Source: a virus. Taken from it: DNA of 25,948 bases. Below are positions 807 through 23,733 of this stretch, piece after piece (position 1 is the stretch's first letter; each line of letters opens with the position of its first letter). The notes beneath the pieces were generated by a model that was not told the origin of the DNA, ran no database searches, and saw nothing but the letters and a program-made list of their open reading frames with translations. The stretch covers positions 1-25,948 of the IMG/VR virus record IMGVR_UViG_3300037189_009502; one strand, given 5' to 3'. A program made the position numbers and the translations under genes.

Positions 807-1640
807 ATGTCTTTTAATTTTAGTTCATTAACATCTGGAATCGCCAATGCCGCTGGTGGCATACTTGGCGGCATTTCGGGCAATCCTGGCGCCGGCATCA
901 TCGGCCAAATTGGCAGCATACTAGACCCCAGCAATGCTAGATTATCCATGACCAATTTGCTCAAAGGTGGCGGCAACCGCCCGGCTAAAATTGGAGAAAC
1001 CCGTGTTGGTTTTGTGAATGCGGCAGCAGGACCGGTTGCGCTCGACGATGATTGGAGAGTTCGTGTAAGTTTAGGCAATGACGCTGGCATTTTTTATCAA
1101 ACCAATCCTGGCATCATGGAACCTTTGGTTAAAACAAACGGAGTAGTTTTCCCTTACACACCGGCTGTGACCACCAGCTACACTGCCACCTACAGTAGTC
1201 AGAAACCCACGCACAGCAACTACCCTGCATATTTCTATGAATCTAGCGAAGTGCAGGCCATACAAATCACTGGCGATTTTACAGTACAAAATCAAGATGA
1301 AGGTGCCTATCTAATTGCTTGTATTTACTTTTTTAGGGCTTGCACAAAAATGTTCTACGGCAGCGGAGAAAACGCAGGCAATCCACCACCGGTGGTTTTC
1401 TTGAACGGTTATGGTCCAGACATACTGCCAAATGTTCCTTGTATAGTAACCAGTTTTCAACAGGTAATGGGCAACGACGTAGACTATATAGATGTTAAAA
1501 CTTATGGTGCGACCAATAGAGTGCCCACAGCCTGTCAATTACAACTCAGTCTACAGCCTGTTTACAGCAGAAAGAAGATTGCTGAGTTTGATTTGAATAA
1601 GTTTGCTGCCGGACAACTAGTTGGAGGAGGATTCCTATAA
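807..1640 (+). CDS. Putative tail-tube/baseplate junction protein (gp48/gp54-type position)
   Basis: This is a 277-residue protein. Residues 8-36 are Gly/Ala-rich and hydrophobic (repeated GGI/AGI), a flexible or membrane/tube-contacting N-terminus rather than a classical signal peptide. The core (about 80-265) is a soluble alpha/beta domain with the patterns TSYTATYSSQKPTHSNYPAYF, QITGDFTVQNQDEGAY and VTSFQQVMGNDVDYIDV, ending CQLQLSLQPVYSRKKI. I associate such proteins with tail-tube initiator or cap subunits (T4 gp48/gp54) in T4-like phages from environmental contigs, but I cannot verify that by alignment. It is the first gene of the module and its stop overlaps the start of the gp53-like gene (TAATG), indicating translational coupling. 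AAGAGG lies 7 bases before the ATG. It is a virion component with good confidence; the exact subunit is uncertain. Confidence 0.55.
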   Translation: MSFNFSSLTSGIANAAGGILGGISGNPGAGIIGQIGSILDPSNARLSMTNLLKGGGNRPAKIGETRVGFVNAAAGPVALDDDWRVRVSLGNDAGIFYQTNPGIMEPLVKTNGVVFPYTPAVTTSYTATYSSQKPTHSNYPAYFYESSEVQAIQITGDFTVQNQDEGAYLIACIYFFRACTKMFYGSGENAGNPPPVVFLNGYGPDILPNVPCIVTSFQQVMGNDVDYIDVKTYGATNRVPTACQLQLSLQPVYSRKKIAEFDLNKFAAGQLVGGGFL

Positions 1641-1939
1641 TGGCTGCTTACAGCAAATCCAGTCCTTACTTTAGCACACAAAGCTTTGGGGCCTTTCTAG
1701 ACGTGTTAAATTATAGAAGTATACCCAGCGACCCCAGCGACGCCGAGTTTAACATTACTTCAGTTTACAAACACCGCCCAGACCTATTGGCATTTGACTT
1801 GTATGGTGATGCTGCCTTGTGGTGGGTGTTTACCAGTCGTAACCCCAATGTTCTCAAAGATCCAGTGTTTGACTTTTATCCTGGACAAACAATTTTTATA
1901 CCTAAAAAAGAAGCACTAGTGGCTGCACTAGGAATTTAA
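1640..1939 (+). CDS. 53: Baseplate wedge protein, T4 gp53-like
   Basis: This is a 99-residue protein. The N-terminus SSPYFSTQ is followed by NYRSIPSDPSD, then YKHRPDLLAFDLYGDAALWW (about 46-65), RNPNVLKDP (70-78) and FDFYPGQTIFIPK (80-92). The block 'hRPDLLAfDLYGD..WWvF..RNP..ikDPifDF.PG..IfiP' is the signature of phage gp53 wedge proteins, whose C-terminal part resembles a LysM-type fold. In T4, gp53 helps join wedges around the hub. The start is well placed: a strong GGAGGAGGA (1623-1631) inside the end of the previous gene lies 8 bases before the ATG, and the two genes overlap by one base. It is half the length of T4 gp53 (196 aa), so it is a minimal version. Confidence 0.82.
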   Translation: MAAYSKSSPYFSTQSFGAFLDVLNYRSIPSDPSDAEFNITSVYKHRPDLLAFDLYGDAALWWVFTSRNPNVLKDPVFDFYPGQTIFIPKKEALVAALGI

Positions 1940-4304: not shown

Positions 4305-6464
4305 ATGGCCATGGATAGACGCTCGGGCAAGAAGCCGCCAGAACATTTTGTTAGAGAAGACTCCTCTACTAGACTGGACACAGGCCCGTATATTGGAAAA
4401 ATTAAAAACAACTTGGATCCAAGTCGTTCAGGACGACTGCAGGTTTATATTCCTGACCTAAGCGGTGGCAACGAAGATGCCGCAGAAAATTGGCGCACAG
4501 TCAGTTATGCAAGCCCTTTCTTTGGCAGTACCACACAGCCAGACACCAACAAACAAAATGCTTTCAGCAAGGTACGACATTCCTATGGCATGTGGGCAGT
4601 GCCTCCTGACATAGGTAATCTAGTGTTGTGTACTTTTGTAGCAGGAGACCCAAATCGCGGTTACTGGTTTGCCTGCGTACCAGGACAGCTTGGGCATCAT
4701 ATGATTCCTGGCATTGGTGGCAGCCACAATGTTGATGCCGGAACCATAGAAGATCCCAAAGTCAGCAAAAATTACACCAAAGGCAAGCCCACAGTAGTGG
4801 CAGAGTTCAATGAAAATGATGAAGGCACAGACTGGACAAACTTTGTAAATTTAAAGAAACCTGTGCATGAAGAACAGTTCAAAGTTTACCTAGAGCAAGG
4901 ACTAGAAGAAGATTACACTAGAGGTATTGTTTCTAGTACAAGTCAACGTGAAAGTCCAAGCTATGTGTTTGGCATCAGCACACCAGGTCGCCCTTTCAAA
5001 GATACTGCATCAGATCCGCAGTATGCCAACAAGATACAAAGTGGTGACCTAAAAGAAAGTGACTATGCAGTGGCTGCCAGAAAAGGCGGGCATTCATTTA
5101 TAATGGACGATGGTAACTTTCAAGGCAAAGACAATCTTGTTAGACTGCGCACAGCCGGCGGACATCAAATCTTAATGAATGACAGCGAGCACATACTTTA
5201 CATTGGCAACGACACTGGCAGTGTGTGGGTTGAATTAACAGGTGCCGGGCACTTGAACATCTTTACAGCCAACAGTCTCAATGTCAGAGCCGGTGCTGAT
5301 CTAAACTTTCACGCCGACAGAGACATCAAACTCAATGCTGGCAGCAACATACAAATGAGTGCCGGAAAAGCCATACAGCAACAGAGTAAAACAAATGCAC
5401 TCAACACCACAGAAGCCATTACCTTGTTTGGCGGCTCAAAAGTCAATGTTGGTAGTTCAGGCACCGTTAACTTGAATTCTGGATCATCAACCAATGTAAC
5501 AGCATCTGGTGCTGTGTATCTAACCGGCAGTACTGTAAATCTCAACAATGGATTCAGTCCTTCGGCAGTGTTTGACAAGCCAAGTCCATTGAAGTTCAAC
5601 AAATTGCCCGACACAGGCAAGCAAGGTGACAAGTGGTTGAGTGTAGATGGAGCATTGCCCACCATTGTGCCCATTGCGCCCACACATGAGCCATGGAAAC
5701 TGCACCAACAGTCTACAATGCCTGGCATATTTACACCAGCGGCTGTTGGAGAAAACACCAAAGATCCAGGCGCAGGAGTAACATCGGGAAAACCTCCCAG
5801 CAAAGAACTTCCAGTAGTTGAGTGCAAAGGCACAGAGCCACCAACTCCACCAACAGATGCAGGGCCCAAGGCAGCACAAGGTGTTGGTGTTAAAAATCCA
5901 GCAAGTAAATCAATATTGAGCAAGAGCAATGCTCCTGTGGTAACAGAAGGTGTGGGCCCCTTGACAGCACAACAAACTGCCGCAGTCATGGCACAACTGG
6001 GACACAACGAAAGCGGATCCAATTATCAAGCTGAAAACCAATACTTTTACATAGGCAAATATCAAACTGGAGCCGCAGTACTAGTAGACCAAGGATACAT
6101 CAAACGTGATGCTTACGCACTCTATGGCAACAAAGCTGTGAACAATGCCAGTTCTTGGACCGGCAAAGACGGAATAACCAGCAAAGAAGAATACAAAAAC
6201 AATGGCCCGTTGCAGGAAAAGGTCATGCAACAGTTGTTGAAGAGCAATTACAAAACATTGACTCGAATTGGTGCTATCAAGGACGGAGACGACCAGTGTA
6301 CAGTGGCCGGCATGCTGGCAGCCAGTCACCTAATAGGTGCAGGTGGTGCCAACAACTGGCGCAACACCGGTGGCGGGCAAGATGCCAACGGCACCACAGG
6401 CACATCCTATTTCAACATGGGTCGATATGCAGTAGACGTATTGGCGGCCCCAACAACGGCTTAA
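4305..6464 (+). CDS. 5: Cell-puncturing spike, gp5-like, with C-terminal lysozyme/transglycosylase-like domain
   Basis: This is a 719-residue protein. Residues 28-125 form a gp5/VgrG-type OB-fold (YIGKIKNNLDPSRSGRLQVY, GMWAVPPDIGNLVLCTFV, GDPNRGYWFACVPGQ). Residues 265-412 lead into a repetitive beta-helix (LRTAGGHQILMND, then LNVRAGADLNFHADRDIKL and similar strands), the needle. After a Pro/Thr/Gly-rich linker (about 415-550, with EPPTPPTDAGP) comes a domain at about 555-715. It has LGHNESGSNY, with probable catalytic Glu569, followed by YIGKYQTGAAVL (582-593), WTGKDGITS and AASHLIGAGGANNW. This pattern belongs to phage tail-associated lysozyme-like or lytic transglycosylase domains. The protein should trimerise on the hub, pierce the outer membrane and cut peptidoglycan. 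T4 gp5 places lysozyme between OB-fold and beta-helix; here it follows the beta-helix. AAGGA (4293-4297) overlaps the upstream stop and sits 7 bases before the ATG. Confidence 0.85.
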   Translation: MAMDRRSGKKPPEHFVREDSSTRLDTGPYIGKIKNNLDPSRSGRLQVYIPDLSGGNEDAAENWRTVSYASPFFGSTTQPDTNKQNAFSKVRHSYGMWAVPPDIGNLVLCTFVAGDPNRGYWFACVPGQLGHHMIPGIGGSHNVDAGTIEDPKVSKNYTKGKPTVVAEFNENDEGTDWTNFVNLKKPVHEEQFKVYLEQGLEEDYTRGIVSSTSQRESPSYVFGISTPGRPFKDTASDPQYANKIQSGDLKESDYAVAARKGGHSFIMDDGNFQGKDNLVRLRTAGGHQILMNDSEHILYIGNDTGSVWVELTGAGHLNIFTANSLNVRAGADLNFHADRDIKLNAGSNIQMSAGKAIQQQSKTNALNTTEAITLFGGSKVNVGSSGTVNLNSGSSTNVTASGAVYLTGSTVNLNNGFSPSAVFDKPSPLKFNKLPDTGKQGDKWLSVDGALPTIVPIAPTHEPWKLHQQSTMPGIFTPAAVGENTKDPGAGVTSGKPPSKELPVVECKGTEPPTPPTDAGPKAAQGVGVKNPASKSILSKSNAPVVTEGVGPLTAQQTAAVMAQLGHNESGSNYQAENQYFYIGKYQTGAAVLVDQGYIKRDAYALYGNKAVNNASSWTGKDGITSKEEYKNNGPLQEKVMQQLLKSNYKTLTRIGAIKDGDDQCTVAGMLAASHLIGAGGANNWRNTGGGQDANGTTGTSYFNMGRYAVDVLAAPTTA

Positions 6465-6473: not shown

Positions 6474-6851
6474 ATGATTACATACAAAGGGTTCAGCACC
6501 TACAACCGTTACAAAAAATTCCGCCTTACGGACTTTGAATTGGCCAAACAAGACTTGTTCAATCATTTTCATATCCGCAAAGGCGAAAAATTGATGAACC
6601 CAAATTTTGGTACCATCATATGGAACGTGCTGTTTGAACCATTCACCGAAGAAATTAAATCGGCTATCAAAGACGATATCAAAGCTGTGGTATCTTATGA
6701 CCCTCGTATGCGGGTAGGAGATGTCACAGTAACCGAGTACGAATACGGCATTCAAATTGACTGCGACTTGACTTACATCCCTGACAATCAAACAGAATTA
6801 CTCAAATTCAGATTTGATCAAAAAAGTCAAACTGTGCGCATGGTTCAATAA
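6474..6851 (+). CDS. 25: Baseplate wedge protein, T4 gp25-like
   Basis: This is a 125-residue protein, close to T4 gp25 (132 aa). The diagnostic block HIRKGEKLMNPNFGTIIWNV (about 32-51) is followed by LFEPFTEEIKSAIKDDI and SYDPRMRVGDVTV. It matches the gp25/lysozyme-like baseplate fold (RKGer...P.FG....Lf....e........I...i..yePRi.v..v.v). gp25 homologues are conserved sheath-initiating wedge components of contractile injection systems and, despite the family name, are not thought to be active lysozymes. The spike gene ends 9 bases upstream. There is no recognisable Shine-Dalgarno sequence, and a TAAATA element lies 6 bases before the ATG, so translation may be leaderless or coupled to the spike gene. 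Confidence 0.88.
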   Translation: MITYKGFSTYNRYKKFRLTDFELAKQDLFNHFHIRKGEKLMNPNFGTIIWNVLFEPFTEEIKSAIKDDIKAVVSYDPRMRVGDVTVTEYEYGIQIDCDLTYIPDNQTELLKFRFDQKSQTVRMVQ

Positions 6852-10301: not shown

Positions 10302-13300
10302 ATGGCAACAAGACGCACTCTTGACTTTTTACCAGGAATATTCCAGACTGATACCAATCGTAAATTCTTAGCGGCCACACTAGACCAGCTGGTCAGTGAA
10401 CCTGATTTTGTTAGATTAAACGGTTATATTGGAAGAAAGTTTGCTCCTACCTACAAAAGCAAGGATAGTTATGTAGCAGAGCCCAGTGCCGATAGGCAGA
10501 ATTATCAACTTGAGCCCAGTATGGTCGTTAAAAACACCAGCAACGAAATAGATCTTTATAGTAGTTACACAGATCTTATCAACAAGCTTGGTTATTATGG
10601 CGCCTCAACTGCCAATCATGACAGATTGTTTGCCAGCGAATACTACGCCTACTCGGGCTTGTTTGATCAAGACAAATTTGTAAACTTCCAGCAGTACTTC
10701 TGGTTACCAAACGGGCCTGAACCAATTGCAATCAGCAGTCGATTTGTTCCTAGTCTAGGAACTTTTAATATCAACAGGAATGAGCAAGACAACTGCTATC
10801 AAATTGATGGCAAAAATGACAACAATCCAGAGATCGTACTAAGCCGAGGCGGCCTGTATAAGTTTGTGATTGGCCAACCCGGCAAGAAATTTTATATTCA
10901 AACAGAACCTGGCATTGCAGGCACTCGTCGCGCAATGCCCAACGTCAGCAGTAGAAACGTCTACGGCATTACCAACAACGGCACCGACAACGGTGTAATT
11001 GAATTTAGAGTTCCGCTGGAAGACACACAAGACGTTTATTTAAAAATGCCAATGTTGGCACCCATCGACTATGTGCTAGACATACCATTGACAGAGCTAG
11101 ATGGTGCTGTGTGGGATGACATAGTGGCTGAATATGGCGGCCTTGATGGAATAGCTGATAAACCCAATGACAAAAAAGTTGTTTTTTCTACGTCTCCTTC
11201 TGTTGACGGCAATTGGCTGCGTGCCAATGGCGACACTGTGGCAGAACAACATCGTTTGGGCATATGGCGTATCCAATTGGTTAAAAATGAACAGGACCAA
11301 GACACATTGTCGATTGGTTATGTATCCGACGTGGCAGTCAATTCAAGAGTGTATGTGAGACTTGGCAGAATAAATGCCAACAAAGAATTTTATTCCAATG
11401 CATCTGGATACCTTCCAGTTCCTCCGTTGACTGCACAGTTGGATACACTGTACTATCAAGACAGCGAAAACCCAGACCTCTACGGAATTCTCAAATTGGT
11501 GTCATCGGCCACAGATGCTATCAACGTTGACATCAGCATACTAGGCAAGAAAAAATATACTACTCCTCAAGGAGTGGAGTTTACCAACGGAATGCTGGTT
11601 AAATTTGACAACTCAATTGAACCCGCTGCCTGGGCCAACAAATCTTACATTGTTGAAGGTGTTGGCAAAAGCATACGCTTGGTTGACTTTGATAATTTAG
11701 TATTTCCAGAACCTGGGCACAGGGTCAACTCTGTGCCCTGGGACAAAGAAGCATTCAACGAAGGCTCATATGATGAGCCTTATAAGGGACCATCCGATCC
11801 AGAATACCTTACAATGAATAGAAGCAGTCTGGACCTTAATGCATGGGCAAGACACAACCGTTGGTTCCACATAGATGTTATTATCAAGAGTGCAGAGCAC
11901 AACAGCAAGGTGCCAAAATTTGATCAAGCAATTCGAGCACAACGTCCCATCATTGAATTTGAAGCAGATGTTCAATTGTTCAATAATGGTCGCATTGGTA
12001 AACGTCCTGTGGATCATATTGACACCACACATACCAGTGCATTTAATCAAGTTCAACACCAATCTACATTGTTGATCAATGGAGTTAGACTTGAAGAAGG
12101 TCAACGTATTTTATTTGCCAATGACACAGATCCTCTTGTGCGCCAACAAGTTTATCGCATTGAATTTAAAATTCAAAGTGAGTCATCATATCAAAGCATC
12201 TACGACGGGCAAGGCGCAGGCACAATTTCTATCATCAGCGGATTATCCGTTGTTGGCAGTGGCACTGATTTTTTAAATGAACTTGAACCAGGCGCAGAGA
12301 TCTATGCTCCCAGCCAAAGCGGTGATGTTTTTGTTGGCACAGTTTCTGCAGTTATGTACAGTGATAGATCTGAACTTAAATTGCCGGCTGCAATCAACTT
12401 GGTAGATTCTGAATTCTATTATAAAAATCCAAGAGTACAATTAATTATTTCCGAAGACCCAGCAGATGCCCTGGAAGCTCAAGACAGTCTGGTTGCCAAG
12501 TTGGGAGAGAACAAGGGCAACACATTTTGGTTTGACGGCGACAAATGGAACAAAGGTCAGCTCAAGAACAAACCCAACCAGGCTGTGTTGTTTGATGTCT
12601 ACGACAACAATGATGGCAGTCTTGCTTCTTACAAGGGTTCCAGCTTTGCAGGAACCAAGATTTTTAGTTACAAACCGGGCACAGGCACCAAAGACTCTGT
12701 GCTAGGGTTTCCAATCGCCTATACTACAAATTACAGCATTGCAGATATTACATTTGACAACAACTTTGGTACAGACACATTCCGTTACCTGGCAGGCACT
12801 GTGTTTTCCACTAAAAAGATAGAACTAGGTTATATTCGTCAGAATCTTGGCCGCACAGAGTTTTTAAAACGTAATACATGGACGCCGGTAAATGAAGCAA
12901 GTCGACAATATCAAGTCATCAGCGAAATTTTCACTGGTGCCACCAATTATTTTGAAATAGACATTGATGCACTGGCGCCAGTGCATAGCCCCACAACCAA
13001 AGTATTTTTGAACAATGTGTTATTGGATCCTGGTCAATATGCCACAGTTTCTGTGGGCAAGCGCCGAGCCATACGAATTCAAGAAACAGTATTAACAGTC
13101 AATGATAAAATTGATATCTTAATTTACAGCAACGCTGTAAGCCAACTTGGGCACTATCAAATTCCAACCAACCTAGATTTTAATAGCAAGAACAAACCTT
13201 TTGCCACACTAACACTGGGACAGTTACGTAATAACCTGACTGCCATTGGAAAAAATGTAGTCGGTATCAGTGGTAATGTTCCTGGAGACAGTAATATCAG

Positions 13301-16300
13301 AGATCTTGATTTGTCTGGCTACGGCGGCAACATATTACAAAACTCAGCTCCTGTGATTTATTCTAGTGTGTTCTTGATCAGTGAGCAGGCCAACTTTGTC
13401 AACGGTCTAGACTATGCACGTAGAGAATACACCAAGTTCAAGAACAAGTTTTTAGAAATGTCTGCCACTCTAAAAGGATTAGATCATAATAATCCCAAAG
13501 ATGGTGTTGATAAAATCTTGGCTGCCATCAACGGAATTAAAAATAAAAACTTTCCTTGGTACTACAGCGACATGGTTCCATACGGAGATGCCCGAGTACT
13601 CAGTTATCGTGTCTTAGATACCACACAAAAACAATATAAAATAGCATCTATATTTGACGACACACAATTGCAAAGTAGAGCAGTATTGGTTTACATCAAT
13701 CGTAGACAGTTGGTAAAAGACGTAGACTTTTATTTTGATAAAAATAGACCAGCCATTCAACTCAATGATTCTATTGTGCTTACCTACAGTGACATCATTG
13801 AAATCAAAGATTACGAGACCACGGATGCCAACTTTGTTCCAGAAACTCCGACCAAGCTGGGATTATACCCTAAGTTTGTTCCTGAATTTTATCTCGATGA
13901 CACCTATAGAGAACCAGTCAACGTTGTTCGCGGTCACGATGGCAGCATTACTCCCAGCTTTGGAGACTATCGCGATCAATATCTATTAGAACTTGAGCAT
14001 AGAATTTATAATAATATCAAGGCAGATTTTTCTAAAGTCATTGATGTAAGAACACTGGTACCGGGTCGTTTTAGAAAAACCGATTACTCCATTGCTGAGT
14101 TTAACAAAATTTTAAACAGCAATTTTTTAAAGTGGGCTGGTTCTAACAAAGTTGATTATGTAACCAACAGCTATTTCAACAACAGCGATCCATTCTCTTA
14201 TAACTACAGAGGCTCCAAAGATTCTTTGTTTAAAGAAACCCTGCCTGGCTACTGGAGAGGCATTTATCAGTATTACTATGACACAGACAAGCCGCATACA
14301 CATCCATGGGAAATGTTGGGTTTCACTGACATGCCCAATTGGTGGATTGATGTCTATGGTCCAATGCCCTATACCAGCAACAATGACCTGTTGTGGAATG
14401 ACATTGAGTTGGGTATAATTCGACAAGGCAGTCGCGCTGGCATTGACACAAACTATGCTCGTCCTGGCCTTTCTAAAATACTTCCAGTTGATCAAGGCGG
14501 AGATTTAGTAGCACCTCTGTTGCGTATTGCCACACCATTGAACACACAAGCAGTTGAGGATGCATTCCAAATTGGAGACGTGGCCCCAGTAGAAGCAGCC
14601 TGGCGCAGAACCAGCGAGTATCCATTTGCCCTACAATCGGCCACAGCAATGATGAAACCGGCCATGTATTTTGGTACACTGTTTGATACCAGCAGATATT
14701 TTAAAAATACAGATTTTGGTCAATTTATGTACAAGGACACATATCAGCGTGTTAGCCCTGATATTGTAACAATCAATGGCGAAACTGTAGATTCCACTGT
14801 GACCAGAGCCAGCGGTTACACCAATTGGGTAGTTGATTACATGACCAGCACTGGCATTGTGGGAGCCACTAAACTACGATCCATGTTAAACAGCATAGAA
14901 GTACAATTGAGTTACAAGTCTGCTGGATACACCGACAAGAAATATTTAACAATCCTGGCTGAACAATATAGCCCAACCAGCATCAACGAGTCAGTTATTG
15001 TTCCAGACGATAGCTATACAATTTATTTGAACAAGAGCGTACCAACACAACGCATTGCCTACAGCGCAGTCATTGTAACCAAAACTGACACTGGATATGC
15101 TGTAAGCGGTTACAACTTGGGCAATCCTTACTTTGTCATTGTTCCCAGCGAAACCAGTGGTGACAAGTACTCTATCAAAGTTGATGATTTTTCAGCTGTG
15201 ATTTATAAATCATTTAAAAATCAAAAGGTACCTGTTCCATATGGAACAGAGTTTACCACACGCCAACAGGTGGTTGATTTCTTGATAAGCTATCAACGTT
15301 ATTTGTTGGCACAAGGATTTGTATTTGATGAATACGATGACAACCTGTCTCAGAACAAAGATTTTGTTCTAAGTATCAGAGAGTTTGTTACTTGGGCCAA
15401 CCAAGGATGGAAAGCTGGAAACGTTTTAATACTAAGTCCTGTTAATACTGCTTTGAAAGTTTATACAACTAATGCAGTCATTGATAAGATTACCAATCAA
15501 ACCAACGGTAGCAGACTGCTGGATCCAAACTTCACTGCTATTCAAACTTCAGACATCACAGTATTACGAGACCAAGGTGAATTTAAGTTAACCAGTATCA
15601 CCGGCAAGACCATTGCATTTGCCGAACTAAATTTAGTTCAATATGAACATGCTTTGATTTTCAACAATGCCACCATTTTCAATGACATTATATATCAACC
15701 AGAATCTGGTAGCAGACAATACAGACTAAAACTAGTGGGCAATAAGACAGCACGTTGGGACGGTTCGTTGAATCCTGCAGGCTTTATCTACAACAGCACA
15801 CAAATTTCCACGTGGAAGTCTGGCAAAGACTATCTCAAAGGAGACATTGTCAGTTACAAAAATCAGTATTACACAGCAACTCAATCAATTGCTGCCGCAA
15901 CAACATTTAATTTAAATCAATGGAAACAGATCAACAAGTCGGACATCAAGACTGGACTGTTACCAAACTTTGCTCACACTGCCAGCCGCTTCATTGATAC
16001 CTATGATGTTGACAGCAGTCTATTAGACAATCAGATGGCCATGATGAGCAGTGGATTAATTGGATTTAGATCGAGAAATTACCTCAATGACCTAAATGTC
16101 AACCACACTAGTCAAACCAAGTTTTACCAAGGCTACATCAAAGAAAAAGGCACAGGCAAATCAATTACCAATTTGCTAAATGCCACCTTCAATGACTTGA
16201 CCAATGACATCAAGTACTACGAAGAATGGGCTGTGCGTGTTGGCGAGTACGGTGCTTTAAACAGCAGTTCTGTTGTGGAAATTGTACTAAACGAAACAAC

Positions 16301-19300
16301 CAGCAAAAACAATCCCACAGGATTGGCCATTGTGGGCAACACTGAAACAGCCGAAGATGGCATTGTCACAGTGCGAGATAGAGACTTATGGGACAAGCCT
16401 TTTGGCACAGACCCAGTGAAGTTCATTAATAGACCATTGAATTATATTTCGGAACGAGACGTTCAAAGTGCTGGTTATGTCAACCTCGACGACATTGATG
16501 CAACGTTGTTTGATACCAACGACTATCAGAACTTAAACACTAAAATAGCTGAATTATCCAGTGGTTACTTGGTTTGGTTTGCCAAAGATCACAACCGAGA
16601 CTGGAACATTTACAGAGCCACTGAAACAGATACAACTGTGAACAAACTTGAGTACAGTCTTGATCGTGTGGCAAAAATTACCACCACTAACCCGCATGGA
16701 CTAGAAGCCAAACAGGTCATAGCATTTAAAAATCTTGACTCAAACTTTGATGGTTTTTATGTGGTCAACGATGTTCAAAATTTGAGAGAGTTTACTGTCA
16801 CAGTCAACAACGATCAAACCAAGTTGCTGAGACAAAAAACCATATCTTGTCCGCCAATTGGCGCGGCTGCCGACAACGGCATTGGTATATTGTTTGTGCT
16901 ACACTCAGTGAGATTTAATTCGCCCAACGACATTGATAGCTTTACACCTCGCCATGGTTGGCGCAATGGAGATTTGGTATGGGTTGACCATGACATGGAT
17001 GACCGTTGGAGTGTTTACAAAAAACAAAGCGTATGGAACTACGACTCGTCGCTGGATATACAACTTGGCGTGACTAGACCCAATATCAACTACGGCACCT
17101 CAGTTAAATTAAACAACAAATTCTTGGTAGTTGGTGCTCCTGGCGATCATGACGGGTATGGTAGAATACATGTTTTTGACAAAAATAAATCAAAAGAGCG
17201 AGGTGTATTGCCTACTGGCATTGGAGAAATATCTCAACTTGGATTCAGTGTTGATGCCGCGCAAGATTACATAGTTGCTGGTGCACCAGACAGTTATGCA
17301 CAAACAGGCGCTGTGGTAGTCTACAGATATCAACAAAATGCACTGTTCATTCCAGTACAGGTTATAACTCCCCCAATGCTAAGATCAGGTTCTCAATTTG
17401 GCTACTCTGTGAGTCAGAGTGCAGATGCAAAATGGTTATATGTTGGCAGTCCTGGCGACAACAAAACACACGTTTATCTATTAGAAGATTATGGAAATGC
17501 GTATAAATCTTTTACCATTGCTGATGTTGGTCCAGGCCTGTCGGTGCCGTATGATATCAGCGACATAAATTCTATTGCAGTCTATGTCAATGACGACATT
17601 TTAACTCCAGAGGTTGATTATTATGTTGACCACAATAATCTAATTAGATTTGTTCTCAACGTGGAAGAACTTTTGTCTGAAGATAATTCCTATATTGTCA
17701 CCGAAGATGGTTCAGCTGAAATAATTTCAGAAGTTACTCGACAGGTACAGACTGTGGGTAGTATTGTAGTAGCACGACGTAGTTATTATGTTTACAAAGG
17801 AACAATGAGCCAAGGCTCAGATCTCGACCAGTTTGGATTTAGTGTTAAATCAAGTCCAACTGGAGATTGTGTGGTAATTGGTGCACCGGGGCAAACAGTT
17901 GACAGTTTGGTGCAAGCCGGACATGCTTATGTTTATGCAAACTCATTGTCTGACTCTCCGGTGTTGACACTAGAACAAACATTAACATCCAATACTCCAG
18001 CATACCGAGCAAGATTTGGATCTAGCATAGACTATGCTGCCAATACCGGCAGCATCTACGTTGGTGCTCCTGGCCACTCTACATTTGCACAATCCGGTGG
18101 GCTGGTACAAAGATATGAGAAAACAGAAAATGGCTATGCACTTGCACAAGAACTGTATAAGCCTGTGCACCTAGCTGGTGAAAACTTTGGTAGCTATGTC
18201 AAGGTCAGTGACGATGATAGAACATTAATGGTTTCTAGCAGTCATGGCACTGCACAAACTCAAACCATCATTGACACCAAGAAAACCACATTTGATGGCG
18301 GAGCAACCATTTGTCTAGACATTACTAGAGGCACTGGTGCAGTTTATCTGCACGATTACATGCCAGCTGGCACAAGAGCAGACACCCAATATGGAAATTT
18401 TGTATTTGCTGACGAGTTTAATGCACCGCATTTAATGCTAGGTGACCAATTTGGTTGTAGCTTGGACTTTGATAAGAATACCTTATACGTTGGTGCCAGC
18501 TACAGTGATTTAAAATTCAACAATGCCGGTGCAGTCTACAAACAGACAAACAGCACCGGATCAGCAACATGGACAATTTCTAGACAACAGAAACAGTCTG
18601 TGGACGTTGGAACAATCAACGGCATCAGCTTGTATAACAAAATTACCAAATCTAAACTGGCCAGCCTAGATTATATTGATCCTGCCAAAGGCAAATCTTT
18701 GGGCATTGTTGAACAAAGTCTGAACCACAAGAGTAGCCAGGACCCTGCTATGTACAACGTCGGACGTGCCATAGCCGACAGCAAACTGGTAGACTTCCAT
18801 TGGGGCACACAACAGGTTGGACAAACTTGGTGGGATTTAAACACTGTTCGTTTTGTTGACTATGAACAAGACACCCTGGTCTATAGATTAAACAACTGGG
18901 GCAAGTTGTTCCCAGGAAGCACAGTATCTGTGTATGAATGGGTAGAAAGCACATCAAAGCCCAGCGAGTACACAGCAGCCGGCAATCCTGGCATGCCACG
19001 CAATGCAGATGACAGCGCATATGTACAAGTAAGTTATGCAGACTCTAGTTCCGGTGTAATCAAAACAAAATACTATTATTGGGTGAGTGGTATATCAACT
19101 GTGCCTGTTGGGTCTAATAGACACCTCAGCGTTCTAGGCATTGAGGATGCTATCAAAAATCCAAAAAATCAACACATCCCTTACGCAGCCATCCTGGCTG
19201 ACAACAGCATTGGTATTTTTAATTGTGATCAGTACATCACCGGAACAGATGTTATTTTAAAAGTGGACTATGACAATGTTCTAAATGATAACTTAATACA

Positions 19301-22010
19301 CAGTGAATTTGAACTAGTACAAGAAGGCACTACCAGTTCTATCATGCCTGCTAGAATTGTCAATAAACTTGTTGACAGTTTGGCCGGCGCCGACAACATG
19401 TTGCGCAGAGTTCCGGATGCAAAACTAAGACCTAGTCAGAGTCTAGGTTTAGAGATTCGCCCAAGACAAACATTGATAAAAAATAAATCAACTGCTTGGA
19501 AAAATGTTGCACAATTTGTCAACAACGTATTTGCACAAACAACTTCAGCCTACAAGCTTCAAAACAGTGAAAAGTTTGATCGTGCCATGTTCTTTGCAGT
19601 CCAACCCGAGCCTACAGACTATGATCATTTGGCAGCCAACAGAACAGAACTTGGTTATGTCAATTTGGTGCCCGGTGAAACTATACTAATATCCAATGAC
19701 GATCAGTTCTTTGACTTGTGGACATTGTTTGAAGTTCAAGAAGATCTGAGTCTCAAGTTGATACAGAATCAAACTTACAAAACAACTGATCTGTGGTCAT
19801 ATGAAACATGGTACAAAGCTGGTTTTGATAAAGAAACTGTGCCAGACTACATCGTTGATGCATACAAAGACATTGAAAAGTTAAACCCAGTGGCTGGCAA
19901 TGTTGTTCGCATAGAAAGCTCAAACGGCAACGGATTTGAAATTTATCAGTTCGCTAGCCCAACCGAATTGGAATTGCTGGCAGTAGAGAATGGTAGTTTG
20001 AAATTGTCCGACAAAGTTTGGGACTCTGCGCAAAACGACATTGGATTCGACAATCAAAGCTTTGAAGGAGCTCCGTTTGATAGAGACCGTGCGCACGAGC
20101 TAAGAAACATTTTAGTTGGACTCAAAGAAGATATCTTCATCGATGACTTGATCGAACACTATAATGGACTATTGTTCACGGCAGTACACTATATTTTAAG
20201 CGAACAACAAAACGTAGACTGGATCTTTAAAACCAGTTTTGTTAATGTGTTACACAAAATCAAAGAGCTGGCACAATATCCTAATTACATCAAGGATAAC
20301 CACAACTACTACGAAGAATACATCAACGAGGTCAAACCGTATAGAACTAAGTTGCGTGAATATCGCATAGGCTATACCGGATTAGATCTAGCGCCAACAG
20401 CCATCAGCGACTTTGATTTGCCTGGATACTATGACTTTGACCTACAGAGATTCCGTAGTCCCAGCGGAGAGTACCCAACCAAAGACGGTGCTCTATTCAC
20501 AATGCCCGAGTACGTAGACTGGGCCAAGAATTTCACTTGTGGTGTAAACTCAATCAACATCGCCGATGGCGGACAGGGATATTCAGATGCACCACAGGTT
20601 AAAATTGTTGCCAACGGTGATGGAGGCACAGGTGCCACAGCTGAAGCAATTATAAGCAATGGAAAAGTTACCAGCATAAATGTAACCAATCCTGGTGTAG
20701 GGTATAGAAATACTCCTTACGTAGTTATCAATGGCAATGGTACTGGTGCACGTGGCTACGCAATATTATCAAACAGTAAAATAAGAGCTGTTAAGACTGT
20801 GCTTAAATTTGATAGAGTATCATTCAATACCATTGTGCGTGAATGGATACCTGGCGGTGCCTACAATACCGGGGACTTGGTTAGTTATAAAGGCAAAGGG
20901 TATCGTGCAAAAACTGCCTATGCTGGAGATGTATTTAACATTGGTAAGTTTACGTTATTGTCTGGAGAAGAATATACCAGTGCCAATGACCGCCTGGCAG
21001 CTACCTATGCTCCAGGACAAAATCAAATACAAAAAGAAGTTGATGCACTGGGCAAGATCGACCTACGTAGATTAATACCTGACATTAGCAGAGAAGAGCA
21101 CAAATTAGTTGGTAAGCCAGACGCAGAAGGATTCATTGTGTCTCCGCCAGCCGGAGACAATGTTACTGCAACCGAGCCAGCAAGTATCAGTATCAAAGGT
21201 GGCACGTTCTTGGATCAGAACAAGGCTTATGCACCCGAAGAACTGGTAGCAGGAACAACAACCGACAGTTTAAACATCATGGTTGCTACAAAAATTCCCT
21301 ACGATAATCCACAATACTTGGTCAAGTACAGGATTCTTAAAAACCAAGCCGGGGAAACTACATACCTGGCCATGTCGGCTGATGCAGTTACAACATTGGC
21401 CCAGGATTTACACTATGGAGATACAGAAATACATCTAACCAATCTTTCTGCTATCACCATGCCAAACGTGTCAAAGAAAACACCGGGCATAGTCTACATC
21501 AACGGAGAAAGAATTAAATTTTGGCAAGTTGATAGACCAGGTAACATTATTAGAAATCCCAGCAGAGGCGTGGACTATACTGCAACGCCACAGGTGCATC
21601 CAGCTGGAACTCTGGTTGAAGATCAAGCACCAAAATTTGAAATTCCAGAAACCAGTAGAATAGATCAAGACACATTTAGGTTCAGCCAAAAAAATCCAGT
21701 GTTTACTACTAGATTTGTAGTAAGCCGAGACATTGAAGTGGTTAGAAACAAACTAGAAGTTTATAACGGTGTAACTAGGTTAAATTTAGACATTGATTAT
21801 AGCATACAAATCAATGACAATTCAACAGCATCAATTGAATTCACCAATGCCAGCGCCATTAAGAATGGTGTTAGATTCACTGCAAAATACCCTGAGGATT
21901 TAATTTGGTTAAATCATGGGGAAAACACCATCACAGACGGCCACGGGTTAGAAGGCAGCACCACATTGCCAGCTAACTTTGTTAAGCGTTATATACACGA
22001 TTTACCATGA
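10302..22010 (+). CDS. Giant modular baseplate-associated structural protein / adhesin (gp7 position)
   Basis: One open frame of 3,902 residues fills 45% of the window. It follows gp6, where T4 has gp7 (1,032 aa), so a wedge role is inferred from position; homology to gp7 is not visible to me. The N-terminus (RRTLDFLPGIFQTDTNRKF, then LVSEPDF and IGRKFAPTYKS) is probably the virion-docking part. Seen in order: LINGVRLEEGQRILFAND near 590; VYvNg..L...DY hairpin modules at about 897-943 and 1125-1172; PTKLGLYPKFVPEFYLDDTY near 1180; GYWRGIYQYYYDTDKPHTH near 1316; a chitin-binding-like W...Y..GD.V.Y...Y..W segment at 1838-1874; a PHGLEAKQVIAFKNL segment near 2131; a seven-bladed FG-GAP propeller at about 2265-2750; Gly-rich GGQGY/GGTGATAEA repeats at 3423-3495; a second CBM-like segment at 3514-3551; YINGERIKFWQVD near 3730; and a last hairpin module at 3816-3866. 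It overlaps the next gene by ATGA. No Shine-Dalgarno sequence is evident before its ATG. Confidence 0.75.
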   Translation: MATRRTLDFLPGIFQTDTNRKFLAATLDQLVSEPDFVRLNGYIGRKFAPTYKSKDSYVAEPSADRQNYQLEPSMVVKNTSNEIDLYSSYTDLINKLGYYGASTANHDRLFASEYYAYSGLFDQDKFVNFQQYFWLPNGPEPIAISSRFVPSLGTFNINRNEQDNCYQIDGKNDNNPEIVLSRGGLYKFVIGQPGKKFYIQTEPGIAGTRRAMPNVSSRNVYGITNNGTDNGVIEFRVPLEDTQDVYLKMPMLAPIDYVLDIPLTELDGAVWDDIVAEYGGLDGIADKPNDKKVVFSTSPSVDGNWLRANGDTVAEQHRLGIWRIQLVKNEQDQDTLSIGYVSDVAVNSRVYVRLGRINANKEFYSNASGYLPVPPLTAQLDTLYYQDSENPDLYGILKLVSSATDAINVDISILGKKKYTTPQGVEFTNGMLVKFDNSIEPAAWANKSYIVEGVGKSIRLVDFDNLVFPEPGHRVNSVPWDKEAFNEGSYDEPYKGPSDPEYLTMNRSSLDLNAWARHNRWFHIDVIIKSAEHNSKVPKFDQAIRAQRPIIEFEADVQLFNNGRIGKRPVDHIDTTHTSAFNQVQHQSTLLINGVRLEEGQRILFANDTDPLVRQQVYRIEFKIQSESSYQSIYDGQGAGTISIISGLSVVGSGTDFLNELEPGAEIYAPSQSGDVFVGTVSAVMYSDRSELKLPAAINLVDSEFYYKNPRVQLIISEDPADALEAQDSLVAKLGENKGNTFWFDGDKWNKGQLKNKPNQAVLFDVYDNNDGSLASYKGSSFAGTKIFSYKPGTGTKDSVLGFPIAYTTNYSIADITFDNNFGTDTFRYLAGTVFSTKKIELGYIRQNLGRTEFLKRNTWTPVNEASRQYQVISEIFTGATNYFEIDIDALAPVHSPTTKVFLNNVLLDPGQYATVSVGKRRAIRIQETVLTVNDKIDILIYSNAVSQLGHYQIPTNLDFNSKNKPFATLTLGQLRNNLTAIGKNVVGISGNVPGDSNIRDLDLSGYGGNILQNSAPVIYSSVFLISEQANFVNGLDYARREYTKFKNKFLEMSATLKGLDHNNPKDGVDKILAAINGIKNKNFPWYYSDMVPYGDARVLSYRVLDTTQKQYKIASIFDDTQLQSRAVLVYINRRQLVKDVDFYFDKNRPAIQLNDSIVLTYSDIIEIKDYETTDANFVPETPTKLGLYPKFVPEFYLDDTYREPVNVVRGHDGSITPSFGDYRDQYLLELEHRIYNNIKADFSKVIDVRTLVPGRFRKTDYSIAEFNKILNSNFLKWAGSNKVDYVTNSYFNNSDPFSYNYRGSKDSLFKETLPGYWRGIYQYYYDTDKPHTHPWEMLGFTDMPNWWIDVYGPMPYTSNNDLLWNDIELGIIRQGSRAGIDTNYARPGLSKILPVDQGGDLVAPLLRIATPLNTQAVEDAFQIGDVAPVEAAWRRTSEYPFALQSATAMMKPAMYFGTLFDTSRYFKNTDFGQFMYKDTYQRVSPDIVTINGETVDSTVTRASGYTNWVVDYMTSTGIVGATKLRSMLNSIEVQLSYKSAGYTDKKYLTILAEQYSPTSINESVIVPDDSYTIYLNKSVPTQRIAYSAVIVTKTDTGYAVSGYNLGNPYFVIVPSETSGDKYSIKVDDFSAVIYKSFKNQKVPVPYGTEFTTRQQVVDFLISYQRYLLAQGFVFDEYDDNLSQNKDFVLSIREFVTWANQGWKAGNVLILSPVNTALKVYTTNAVIDKITNQTNGSRLLDPNFTAIQTSDITVLRDQGEFKLTSITGKTIAFAELNLVQYEHALIFNNATIFNDIIYQPESGSRQYRLKLVGNKTARWDGSLNPAGFIYNSTQISTWKSGKDYLKGDIVSYKNQYYTATQSIAAATTFNLNQWKQINKSDIKTGLLPNFAHTASRFIDTYDVDSSLLDNQMAMMSSGLIGFRSRNYLNDLNVNHTSQTKFYQGYIKEKGTGKSITNLLNATFNDLTNDIKYYEEWAVRVGEYGALNSSSVVEIVLNETTSKNNPTGLAIVGNTETAEDGIVTVRDRDLWDKPFGTDPVKFINRPLNYISERDVQSAGYVNLDDIDATLFDTNDYQNLNTKIAELSSGYLVWFAKDHNRDWNIYRATETDTTVNKLEYSLDRVAKITTTNPHGLEAKQVIAFKNLDSNFDGFYVVNDVQNLREFTVTVNNDQTKLLRQKTISCPPIGAAADNGIGILFVLHSVRFNSPNDIDSFTPRHGWRNGDLVWVDHDMDDRWSVYKKQSVWNYDSSLDIQLGVTRPNINYGTSVKLNNKFLVVGAPGDHDGYGRIHVFDKNKSKERGVLPTGIGEISQLGFSVDAAQDYIVAGAPDSYAQTGAVVVYRYQQNALFIPVQVITPPMLRSGSQFGYSVSQSADAKWLYVGSPGDNKTHVYLLEDYGNAYKSFTIADVGPGLSVPYDISDINSIAVYVNDDILTPEVDYYVDHNNLIRFVLNVEELLSEDNSYIVTEDGSAEIISEVTRQVQTVGSIVVARRSYYVYKGTMSQGSDLDQFGFSVKSSPTGDCVVIGAPGQTVDSLVQAGHAYVYANSLSDSPVLTLEQTLTSNTPAYRARFGSSIDYAANTGSIYVGAPGHSTFAQSGGLVQRYEKTENGYALAQELYKPVHLAGENFGSYVKVSDDDRTLMVSSSHGTAQTQTIIDTKKTTFDGGATICLDITRGTGAVYLHDYMPAGTRADTQYGNFVFADEFNAPHLMLGDQFGCSLDFDKNTLYVGASYSDLKFNNAGAVYKQTNSTGSATWTISRQQKQSVDVGTINGISLYNKITKSKLASLDYIDPAKGKSLGIVEQSLNHKSSQDPAMYNVGRAIADSKLVDFHWGTQQVGQTWWDLNTVRFVDYEQDTLVYRLNNWGKLFPGSTVSVYEWVESTSKPSEYTAAGNPGMPRNADDSAYVQVSYADSSSGVIKTKYYYWVSGISTVPVGSNRHLSVLGIEDAIKNPKNQHIPYAAILADNSIGIFNCDQYITGTDVILKVDYDNVLNDNLIHSEFELVQEGTTSSIMPARIVNKLVDSLAGADNMLRRVPDAKLRPSQSLGLEIRPRQTLIKNKSTAWKNVAQFVNNVFAQTTSAYKLQNSEKFDRAMFFAVQPEPTDYDHLAANRTELGYVNLVPGETILISNDDQFFDLWTLFEVQEDLSLKLIQNQTYKTTDLWSYETWYKAGFDKETVPDYIVDAYKDIEKLNPVAGNVVRIESSNGNGFEIYQFASPTELELLAVENGSLKLSDKVWDSAQNDIGFDNQSFEGAPFDRDRAHELRNILVGLKEDIFIDDLIEHYNGLLFTAVHYILSEQQNVDWIFKTSFVNVLHKIKELAQYPNYIKDNHNYYEEYINEVKPYRTKLREYRIGYTGLDLAPTAISDFDLPGYYDFDLQRFRSPSGEYPTKDGALFTMPEYVDWAKNFTCGVNSINIADGGQGYSDAPQVKIVANGDGGTGATAEAIISNGKVTSINVTNPGVGYRNTPYVVINGNGTGARGYAILSNSKIRAVKTVLKFDRVSFNTIVREWIPGGAYNTGDLVSYKGKGYRAKTAYAGDVFNIGKFTLLSGEEYTSANDRLAATYAPGQNQIQKEVDALGKIDLRRLIPDISREEHKLVGKPDAEGFIVSPPAGDNVTATEPASISIKGGTFLDQNKAYAPEELVAGTTTDSLNIMVATKIPYDNPQYLVKYRILKNQAGETTYLAMSADAVTTLAQDLHYGDTEIHLTNLSAITMPNVSKKTPGIVYINGERIKFWQVDRPGNIIRNPSRGVDYTATPQVHPAGTLVEDQAPKFEIPETSRIDQDTFRFSQKNPVFTTRFVVSRDIEVVRNKLEVYNGVTRLNLDIDYSIQINDNSTASIEFTNASAIKNGVRFTAKYPEDLIWLNHGENTITDGHGLEGSTTLPANFVKRYIHDLP
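17094..18552 (+). repeat. Seven FG-GAP-like repeats encoding a beta-propeller domain inside the giant protein
   Basis: Seven units of the type xFGxSV...D....hhVGAPG......G.hhhh can be read within the giant protein. Unit 1 (GTSVKLNNKFLVVGAPGDHD) starts near residue 2265. Later units begin at QLGFSV (2312), QFGYSV (2365), DQFGFSV (2509), RFGSSI (2571), NFGSYV (2628) and DQFGCSL (2715). Most keep the VGAPG/IGAPG/VGSPG signature; the sixth has VSSSHG and the seventh VGAS. FG-GAP repeats form integrin-alpha-like propellers used for ligand binding, often with calcium. Between units 3 and 4 is an insertion of about 110 residues. Confidence 0.75.
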
Positions 22011-22714
22011 TAAATAATACTATGAACCAAGATCTTGACAACAAAGTAGTAGATCAAAAACCCGAACCCAAGCCTGACGAACAAGCAGGCATGTATATCC
22101 GTGGTCATATTAAAATCAGTGACCCAGAGACCGGTGAAGTTTTTGTTGATAAACCCAATGCTATTCACTATGAAAATATGAGTGAAGCTATTGCCTATAG
22201 TTTATCCAATAAAGGACGTAATTTTATCTACGAAATGCACTTTGGCAACGGTGGCACCACAGTAGATCCTACTGGCGTTATTAACTATTTGCCGCCCAAC
22301 GTAAAAACACAAAACAGCGATTTGTACAATCCCAGCTTTTATAAAAACGTTGACAATACCAGTAGCAGAAACGCTGATCCTAGTAGAAACAAGTTAGAAA
22401 TCAGACATGTTTCTGGCACCGTTTACAGTGATATTTTAATAACTTGTCTATTAGACTACGGTGAGCCAAATTTGGCCAGTCCTGGAAACCTAATAGGCGA
22501 AACACAGTCTCCTTTTGACAACAGTCAAAGTTTGGATGGTGGATTTGTTTTTGATGAACTAGGATTAAAAGGCTATACAGACGCCGGCGACGGATTAGGA
22601 AAACTCTTGACTCACGTGATATTTCATCCAGTGCAAAAGAGTAGCAACCGTTTGATTCAAATTGAGTACACAGTTCGTATTCAAACAATTACTAACTTAA
22701 CCACTGCAGGATAA
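22007..22714 (+). CDS. Conserved T4-like phage structural protein of unknown role
   Basis: The protein has 235 residues from the ATG at 22007, or 230 from the in-frame ATG at 22022. Residues 10-25 are charged and Pro-rich. The rest is a compact beta-rich protein with the blocks YIRGHIKISDPETGEVFVDK, PNAIHYENMSEAIAYSLSN, FIYEMHFGNGGTTVDPTGV, HVSGTVYSDILITCLLDYGE, FVFDELGLKG and LLTHVIFHPVQKSSNRLIQI. I recall this pattern from uncharacterised proteins next to tail-fibre genes in other environmental phages; I do not recognise a named T4 equivalent. Position between the giant protein and the fibres suggests a small virion adaptor or fibre-base component (inference). The first ATG overlaps the giant gene's stop (ATGA), supporting coupling. 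The second ATG is exactly where a late transcript from the TAAATA at 22011 would begin. Neither has a Shine-Dalgarno sequence. Confidence 0.7.
   Translation: MINNTMNQDLDNKVVDQKPEPKPDEQAGMYIRGHIKISDPETGEVFVDKPNAIHYENMSEAIAYSLSNKGRNFIYEMHFGNGGTTVDPTGVINYLPPNVKTQNSDLYNPSFYKNVDNTSSRNADPSRNKLEIRHVSGTVYSDILITCLLDYGEPNLASPGNLIGETQSPFDNSQSLDGGFVFDELGLKGYTDAGDGLGKLLTHVIFHPVQKSSNRLIQIEYTVRIQTITNLTTAG
22009..22016 (+). promoter_or_regulatory. Late-type promoter element GATAAATA at the giant-gene/structural-gene junction
   Basis: GATAAATA (core 22011-22016) overlaps the stop of the giant gene and the first codons of the next reading frame. With T4-like geometry (last A at -6) the start is 22022, the A of an in-frame ATG, predicting a leaderless transcript that starts translation at residue 6 of the longer frame. 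Confidence 0.5.
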
Positions 22715-22719
22715 CAACA

Positions 22720-23733
22720 ATGCCTTATGTAGTCCGACGAACTGATGGAAATGTTCAGCTTATATTACAAGACGGTCGCACAGACTCGTCACTGGGAATC
22801 ACCTTGGTTGGACGCACCTATACCAATTACGGTGAAGCTTTTGCAGACAACTTTGTTAGACTACTAGAAAACTTTGCCAACGATGCACCACCTTTGAATC
22901 CCTTAGATGGACAAATTTGGTTTGATAAAACAAATAACAAGTTTAAATTTTGGTCCAACAACACCTGGACCACTTTTGCAGATCGCGGACCAGTTGGTTA
23001 CACTGGTAGCTGGGGCGGCCCGGGCCCAACTGGTCCAGAAGGCGTAAGAGGGCCTGTGGGCTACAGTGGTAGCATTGGCCCAGCTGGTGCAACAGGTGAA
23101 ACTGGGTACACCGGCAGCAAAGGCGATATTGGCTATGTAGGCAGCGTTGGCCCAGCTGGTGCAACCGGACCGGTTGGTGCAGCCAGCACAGTGCCAGGCC
23201 CTGAAGGATACACAGGTAGCAGAGGTAACCCAGGCATACAAGGATTTGGCGGCTATGTGGGCAGTAGAGGCACAGTGGGTCCAATTGGACCAGATGGTCC
23301 TAGAGGATACTCAGGTTACACCGGCAGCGTTGGCGCCACTGGCCCGGGCCTCAGCGGACTGTTAAGCCTAACAGGACAATCCATCACCGGAACACAGTCA
23401 AACACAGACATCAACATTAATCCCCTGGGCACAGGACGCCTAAAAGTCAGCAAGGATATAGTACCTGATACGGATGCAACACATTCTATAGGAGAGTCAG
23501 GGCTTGCATGGCTCAAAGTCTATACAGGATCTATAAACTTTGCCGATGGGTCAAAATTTCAGACTAGTAAAGAGCTTGGCAGCAATGCAGTTCCTTTATC
23601 TAGCAAAGGAACATCAGGAGATCGACAAGGGCTAGTAGCACTTGATTCGAGTTATTTCTATTATTGTACTGGATCCTATGACGGAACAGCTGATATTTGG
23701 AAACGTGTCGCGTGGGACCAGTCAACCTGGTAA
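22720..23733 (+). CDS. Fibre-like protein with collagen-type shaft
   Basis: This is a 337-residue protein. Residues 1-88 are an N-terminal domain (GRTYTNYGEAFADNFVRLLE, then PLNPLDGQIWFDKTNN and TWTTF) shared with the next gene and common at the start of fibre or structural proteins in aquatic phages, so a virion-anchoring role is likely. Residues 90-155 are 22 uninterrupted Gly-X-Y triplets, then a four-residue break (STVP), then 17 triplets (160-210). The C-terminal domain (211-337) is beta-rich with NININPLGTGRLKVSKDI-type strands (as seen: DININPLGTGRLKVSKDI), DTDATHSIGESGLAWLKVY and an aromatic end YFYYCTGSYDGTADIWKRV. It is probably a trimeric short fibre with a collagen-like stalk and a distal tip. 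AGGA (22708-22711) lies 8 bases before the ATG. The class is confident; the ligand is unknown. Confidence 0.8.
   Translation: MPYVVRRTDGNVQLILQDGRTDSSLGITLVGRTYTNYGEAFADNFVRLLENFANDAPPLNPLDGQIWFDKTNNKFKFWSNNTWTTFADRGPVGYTGSWGGPGPTGPEGVRGPVGYSGSIGPAGATGETGYTGSKGDIGYVGSVGPAGATGPVGAASTVPGPEGYTGSRGNPGIQGFGGYVGSRGTVGPIGPDGPRGYSGYTGSVGATGPGLSGLLSLTGQSITGTQSNTDININPLGTGRLKVSKDIVPDTDATHSIGESGLAWLKVYTGSINFADGSKFQTSKELGSNAVPLSSKGTSGDRQGLVALDSSYFYYCTGSYDGTADIWKRVAWDQSTW
22987..23349 (+). repeat. Collagen-like Gly-X-Y repeat region with recurrent GYxGS motif
   Basis: The region codes for 39 Gly-X-Y triplets in two blocks (22 and 17) separated by STVP. The pentapeptide GY(T/S/V)GS recurs about seven times with Tyr in the X position, mixed with ordinary GPA, GAT and GPV triplets. 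At DNA level a 19-base sequence, TTGGCCCAGCTGGTGCAAC, occurs exactly at 23075-23093 and 23147-23165, 72 bases (24 codons) apart, so slippage or recombination would keep frame. Confidence 0.85.

Follow-up and report, generated by a model that had tools for sequence, protein, structure and literature searches.

The window analysed here is a stretch of 25,948 nt of viral DNA (positions 1 to 25,948 of the IMG/VR record IMGVR_UViG_3300037189_009502), in which a single gene directly behind the gp6-like gene of a T4-like baseplate operon encodes a protein of 3,902 residues, hereafter the giant protein. It is a further member of a widespread and already catalogued family in RaK2-, PA5oct- and Atu_ph07-type jumbo phages. 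We consider that it probably serves as the gp7-position baseplate wedge scaffold of a T4-related jumbo-phage supergroup and carries clade-specific surface-binding insertions; the supergroup takes in RaK2, 121Q, GAP32, PA5oct and Atu_ph07 together with many environmental relatives. This reading is favoured by the position in the operon, by the presence of relatives in virions, by the lack of a named gp7 in phage CBB, by the occurrence of gp7-type proteins in the contractile systems described in the literature consulted (T4, XM1 and the TssF/TssG system) and by a near-universal core combined with clade-specific modules.

The frame runs from ATG to TGA with no internal stop and corresponds to a product of 436.4 kDa. 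The first-pass annotation had described one uninterrupted frame of 11.7 kb after gp6, nearly four times the size of T4 gp7, and both statements hold, as the protein is 3.8 times as long as T4 gp7 (1,032 aa). The ATG starts 9 nt past the stop of the gp6-like gene, and the TGA shares nucleotides with the start codon of the following gene at 22007 (ATGA). Conservation over the whole length of the frame establishes that it is real and not a chance open frame. An assembly fusion, raised earlier as a possible artefact, is ruled out, since independent records have homologues of 3.1-6.3 kaa behind gp6, with full-length ones both in independent contigs and in isolates. Tandem-repeat expansion is likewise ruled out, as no repeat array was seen under the frame or elsewhere in the window. 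No tRNA genes were seen in the window.

From upstream to downstream the operon reads gp53-like, hub region, gp5-like, gp25-like, gp6-like and giant (Table 1), which parallels the T4 cluster 53-5-6-7. Since the gene that comes after gp6 in the T4 record is gp7, the original assignment of the giant protein to the gp7 slot is correct by gene order. In IMG/VR relatives, gp6 lies directly 5' of the giant gene in all 60 loci with enough upstream sequence, and the 235-aa partner gene lies downstream in 40 of 44 loci. A single giant gene was found directly 3' of gp6 in all isolates examined except Salicola phage SCTP-2, where the giant (3,807 aa) does not adjoin gp6 (gene 239). In SCTP-2 it stands beside a second giant of 3,096 aa (L004:2284-11574, L004:11652-23075), which matches phrog_8401, 'beta-propeller repeat protein'. 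A divergent gene for a late-transcription sigma factor heads the baseplate operon in PA5oct, 121Q and XaC1 too. The two successive fibre genes of the window share a similar N-terminal motif, LLENF...PLNPL.GQ.W, which is probably a common docking domain; they differ in that one has collagen repeats and the other a Peptidase_G2 autoprocessing domain.

Table 1. Genes of the window and segments of the giant protein, with nucleotide positions in the window
Feature	Position	Strand	Basis or context
Late sigma factor (phrog_12791), divergent, heading the baseplate operon	1-744	minus	PHROG match
Virion structural protein	start 807		upstream of gp53-like gene
gp53-like wedge protein	1640..1939	+	PHROG and Pfam profile matches
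Structural protein, hub region	start 1943		between gp53-like and gp5-like genes
gp5-like hub/spike protein	4305..6464	+	PHROG and Pfam profile matches
gp25-like baseplate wedge/sheath initiator	6474..6851	+	PHROG and Pfam profile matches
gp6-like baseplate wedge protein, 1,131 aa	6897..10292	+	phrog_10646, E=5e-296; also phrog_219
Giant gene, gp7-position virion protein (phrog_10938 family), 3,902 aa	10302..22010	+	ORF, profile match, homologues
Residues 1-160, N-terminal segment LP...GYIG...E..R..YQL...	10302..10781	+	alignment, kept in 15/15 members
Residues ~151-500, N-terminal stretch found in the clade of the window (L007, L008), mostly missing in 121Q/RaK2-type members	10752..11801	+	occupancy
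Residues 700-1830, main conserved core	12399..15791	+	best phrog_10938 match; alignment; PDB fold and sequence searches negative
Residues ~1828-1876, first CBM5/12 (chitin-binding-type), inserted in core, window's clade	15783..15929	+	Pfam, profile, Foldseek
Residues 1890-2010, helical segment, motif FYxGxIxxKGT...EEWAFKxGEYG	15969..16331	+	alignments; low-confidence model
Residues ~2265-2760, seven FG-GAP blades (integrin-alpha-type beta-propeller)	17094..18581	+	Pfam and sequence reading
Residues 2755-3400, second core block, helical EQxxVDWVFKTS...EVKPYRTKIR motif at end	18564..20501	+	alignment; PDB search negative
Residues ~3410-3498, GYxxxP glycine-rich beta-repeats	20529..20795	+	PHROG and tblastn matches to cyanophage structural proteins
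Residues 3514-3542, second CBM5/12	20841..20927	+	Pfam
Conserved partner gene, 235 aa (phrog_11259)	22007..22714	+	start overlaps giant stop
Collagen-like fibre gene	22720-23730		after 235-aa gene
Peptidase_G2-type fibre gene	23772-25058		after collagen-like fibre gene

In the PHROGs profile search the giant protein matched phrog_10938, 'virion structural protein' (3,324 positions), in five stretches with E=0 and 1,093 bits. Members of this family include RaK2 ORF070, 121Q gp582, GAP32 gp230, PA5oct gp355 and Atu_ph07 gp180. No match was obtained at the DNA level among the phage collection records, and protein-level homologues covering most of its length were found in about 60 phage records. 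Their lengths are 3,857 aa in PA5oct, 4,555 in Phosso, 4,449 in Atu_ph07, 3,771 in Vibrio phage 2.275.O, 3,323 in 121Q, 3,326 in RaK2, 3,332 in XaC1, 3,341 in GAP32 and 3,342 in Munch, with more distant homologues in XacN1 (3,313 aa) and RAS14 (3,138 aa). The protein is thus not the exception it was first taken for, as homologues of 3.1-6.3 kaa in the same slot are general in the supergroup and already stand in PHROGs. Well-described homologues of the same length with an assigned function had also been considered at first pass; the lengths are now documented, and a function beyond 'structural' is not.

A family-alignment scan confirmed at least 591 related stretches in IMG/VR. Among 80 of these and three from another scan, 59 distinct frames exceed 3,400 aa. 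Four of them (L058:3830-22402, L054, L068 and L073) are single frames of about 6,190-6,290 aa, unusually large for a phage, with ~870 extra residues before the KGT motif and a longer region after it. The nearest relative (L049; 3,991 aa) is collinear with residues 1-3897 and has an identical operon order; identity is mostly 50-75% in the core and falls to 33-41% over residues 2401-2775 and 23-44% over 3526-3825, such that the propeller and the C-terminus are the least conserved parts. In another stretch (L009:6668-12997) the layout is that of L008 up to this point, and close to the end of the contig the giant frame is broken off after 2,109 aa, by either a natural break or an assembly error.

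Mass spectrometry places relatives of the giant protein in virions; these are published data for the relatives and not for the phage of the window. PA5oct gp355 is annotated with ESI-MS/MS virion evidence. In phAPEC6 virions, gp245 (381.88 kDa) was identified by 17 unique peptides at 7.6% coverage (PMC7247149 Table 1) and is listed beside gp244, the gp6 'baseplate wedge' (PMC7247149). Similarly, CBB_236 was identified in virions by 21 peptides at 7.72% coverage (PMC5259590 Table 4) and is listed beside CBB_237, 'baseplate wedge' (gp6) (PMC5259590). From the adjacency to gp6, and in the case of gp245 also from its size, we infer that both belong to the giant family. Counterparts were named in CBB for gp6, gp25 and gp53, and none for gp7 (PMC5259590). 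The virion-detected relatives in PA5oct, phAPEC6 and CBB are named only 'structural' or 'hypothetical', and our literature searches found no paper that assigns a role to the giant family.

The anatomy of the protein was mapped by alignment occupancy over 15 full-length family members. A near-universal core of ~2,600 residues takes in about 1-150, 500-650, 700-1090, 1160-1830, 1890-2110 and 2750-3400, while residues 150-500, the first CBM and 2110-2745 occur mainly in relatives of the window; the N-terminal stretch, first CBM and propeller are clade-specific. Adhesin-like modules had been noticed in the letters alone, and Pfam substantiates them: FG-GAP_2 (PF14312) was matched with E=9e-19 and 67.8 bits against a gathering cut-off of 23, and CBM_5_12 (PF02839) in two stretches with E=1.5e-10 and 41.4 bits against a cut-off of 26.2. 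Seven blade-like repeats were read by eye in the propeller, with one insertion of ~95 residues. The first CBM5/12 is absent in most of the 15 aligned members; its family-alignment profile gave a weak match to chitin-binding chains (E=0.006), and Foldseek also led to chitin-binding domains. CBM5/12 domains occur in different proteins of the baseplate operon, here in the giant and, by annotation, in the gp6-type protein of Vibrio phage 2.275.O (L011:6964-10827). Centred on residue 1127 is a beta-module with weak further copies around residues 920 and 2425 (E about 2e-4 in a single-sequence comparison). PHROG matches to 'head closure Hc2' and 'baseplate hub and tail lysozyme' were rejected as spurious, being confined to the GYxxxP repeat (3409-3498); these repeats, which also yield tblastn matches in cyanophages, are a likely source of mis-annotation.

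At the sensitivity used, nothing in the PDB is recognisable as a counterpart of the core, since neither sequence nor fold searches yielded a wedge match. The queries of the sequence searches were the complete protein, its propeller region and seven alignments of the family; they brought up no wedge protein, just weak matches to chitin-binding chains and hits due to chance. Structure prediction had been proposed earlier as a check. Residues 1000-2115 are the sole part modelled by AlphaFold2 at useful confidence (pLDDT 77), and the only recurring matches of this model to solved folds in Foldseek are chitin-binding domains; against a viral structure library, clear matches include the giant family itself and unnamed proteins. 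A baseplate wedge fold was found neither with this model nor with the low-confidence model of 1880-2112.

The main rival to a wedge scaffold is an adhesin or tail fibre docked on the baseplate, attached to gp6 or the hub and binding only the host, with an unrecognised small protein acting as the gp7 element. All recognised domains are indeed of the binding type (FG-GAP, CBM5/12), many segments of the AlphaFold2 model are beta-rich, no homology to gp7 was detected in the giant protein, and the conserved small protein phrog_11259 sits 3' of it. Nevertheless, adhesins are usually the fastest-diverging proteins, whereas here ~2,600 residues, with long parts free of recognised adhesin domains, are conserved across phages of very different hosts, and the binding modules are precisely the parts that are gained or lost. 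Moreover, fibre genes are encoded separately, and the small protein is likewise without similarity to gp7. We therefore regard such an adhesin as unlikely, if a serious contender.

Known proteins of the gp7 type, namely T4 gp7, XM1 gp17 and TssG of the T6SS, each associate with a pair of gp6-type chains by way of a helical core bundle together with a trifurcation domain, giving (gp6)2-gp7 in T4, (gp16)2-gp17 in XM1 and TssF2-TssG (PMC10457771, PMC6300606). In the giant family, the motif FYxGxIxxKGT...EEWAFKxGEYG (residues ~1938-1985 of the window protein) is nearly invariant, being kept in every one of the 15 members aligned and in the majority of the IMG/VR relatives. By eye, its KGT...EEW resembles the KGT...TEWW of P2 gpI, and the best hhalign alignment has the same register at a non-significant score. 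As a lead only, segment 1890-2010 could correspond to the core element of gp7, gpI and TssG. AlphaFold2 modelled the surrounding region (1880-2112) with a pLDDT of 62, too uncertain for use, and the model gave no PDB fold match. All segments compared with T4 gp7 by hhalign gave a probability of at most 0.3%, as against 0.2% in the control comparison of T4 gp7 with P2 gpI, and Tail_P2_I (PF09684) did not match at E<=1. As the control is equally negative, these results are weak and cannot decide the question. A profile of P2 gpI homologues was discarded because the scan gave near-identical copies. The wedge-scaffold reading is weakened by these negatives for gp7, Tail_P2_I and wedge-fold similarity, and by the distance of the SCTP-2 giant from gp6.

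If the giant protein is the wedge scaffold, then in every one of the six wedges the ~2,600-residue core would hold two gp6-like subunits together and stretch out to the rim of the baseplate, the part played by gp7 in T4 and by gpI/TssG elsewhere. The FG-GAP propeller, the CBM5/12 domains and the glycine-rich beta-repeats would be insertions on the outside of the core, where they may bind sugars, the cell surface or separately encoded fibres.

A fusion of several proteins of the T4 wedge periphery (gp7 with gp8, gp10, gp11 or gp12) had been put forward at first pass, with enzymatic functions as a further component. The size relative to T4 gp7, the modular build and the weakly repeated beta-module (~920, 1127, 2425) would suit such an origin. 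Profiles of T4 gp7-gp12, however, matched no segment of the 3,902 aa in hhalign (best 3.1%, for gp10; others at most 1.1%), which is evidence against a fusion and not proof, because the positive control of T4 gp6 against the operon gp6 reached just 62% and the gp11 and gp12 profiles hold two sequences each. The collagen-like and Peptidase_G2 fibre genes and the 235-aa gene also stand separately downstream. A fusion thus appears quite improbable, and the enzymatic part finds no support, as Pfam gave no enzyme domain and NCBIfam no match at all. Cleavage of the giant protein into separate functional products in the virion, which would fit either role, is compatible with the low coverage of the relatives (7.6-7.7%), but low copy number would also fit this coverage and neither Pfam nor NCBIfam gave a protease domain, so that we give it very little weight.

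What is of interest is the role of the family and not the gene of the window as an exception. The family is abundant and its members are unusually large for phage proteins, yet the only name it bears is generic. As the gp7-position wedge scaffold, it would supply the gp7 that is missing from the baseplates of jumbo phages of the RaK2 and PA5oct types, phages considered for therapy among them, and would mark where receptor-binding modules are exchanged. More tentatively, and with rather less confidence than in the scaffold itself, one polypeptide of ~4,000 residues, or as many as 6,290 in relatives, might combine wedge core and host-surface binder, receptor-binding modules being swapped by insertion into the scaffold instead of by exchange of fibre genes, and the wedge folds of the ~2,600-residue core might be new to the PDB.

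Compared with known systems, T4 gp7 likewise lies directly 3' of gp6 but is far shorter and is without detectable profile or fold similarity to the giant protein. P2 gpI (176 aa) and XM1 gp17 (242 aa) are shorter still as gp7-type wedge proteins; in P2 gpI, KGT is followed by E-W ~25 residues on, in the register of the giant protein though not significantly. The named phrog_10938 isolates have the same position after gp6 and the same core, with lengths of 3.1-4.6 kaa; over matching segments the giant protein is ~21-43% identical to them. It differs in having an inserted FG-GAP propeller and a pair of CBM5/12 domains, features that most isolates lack or carry singly. FG-GAP propellers and CBM5/12 domains are known from curated Pfam families, and here they appear as insertions inside a protein of a phage baseplate operon.
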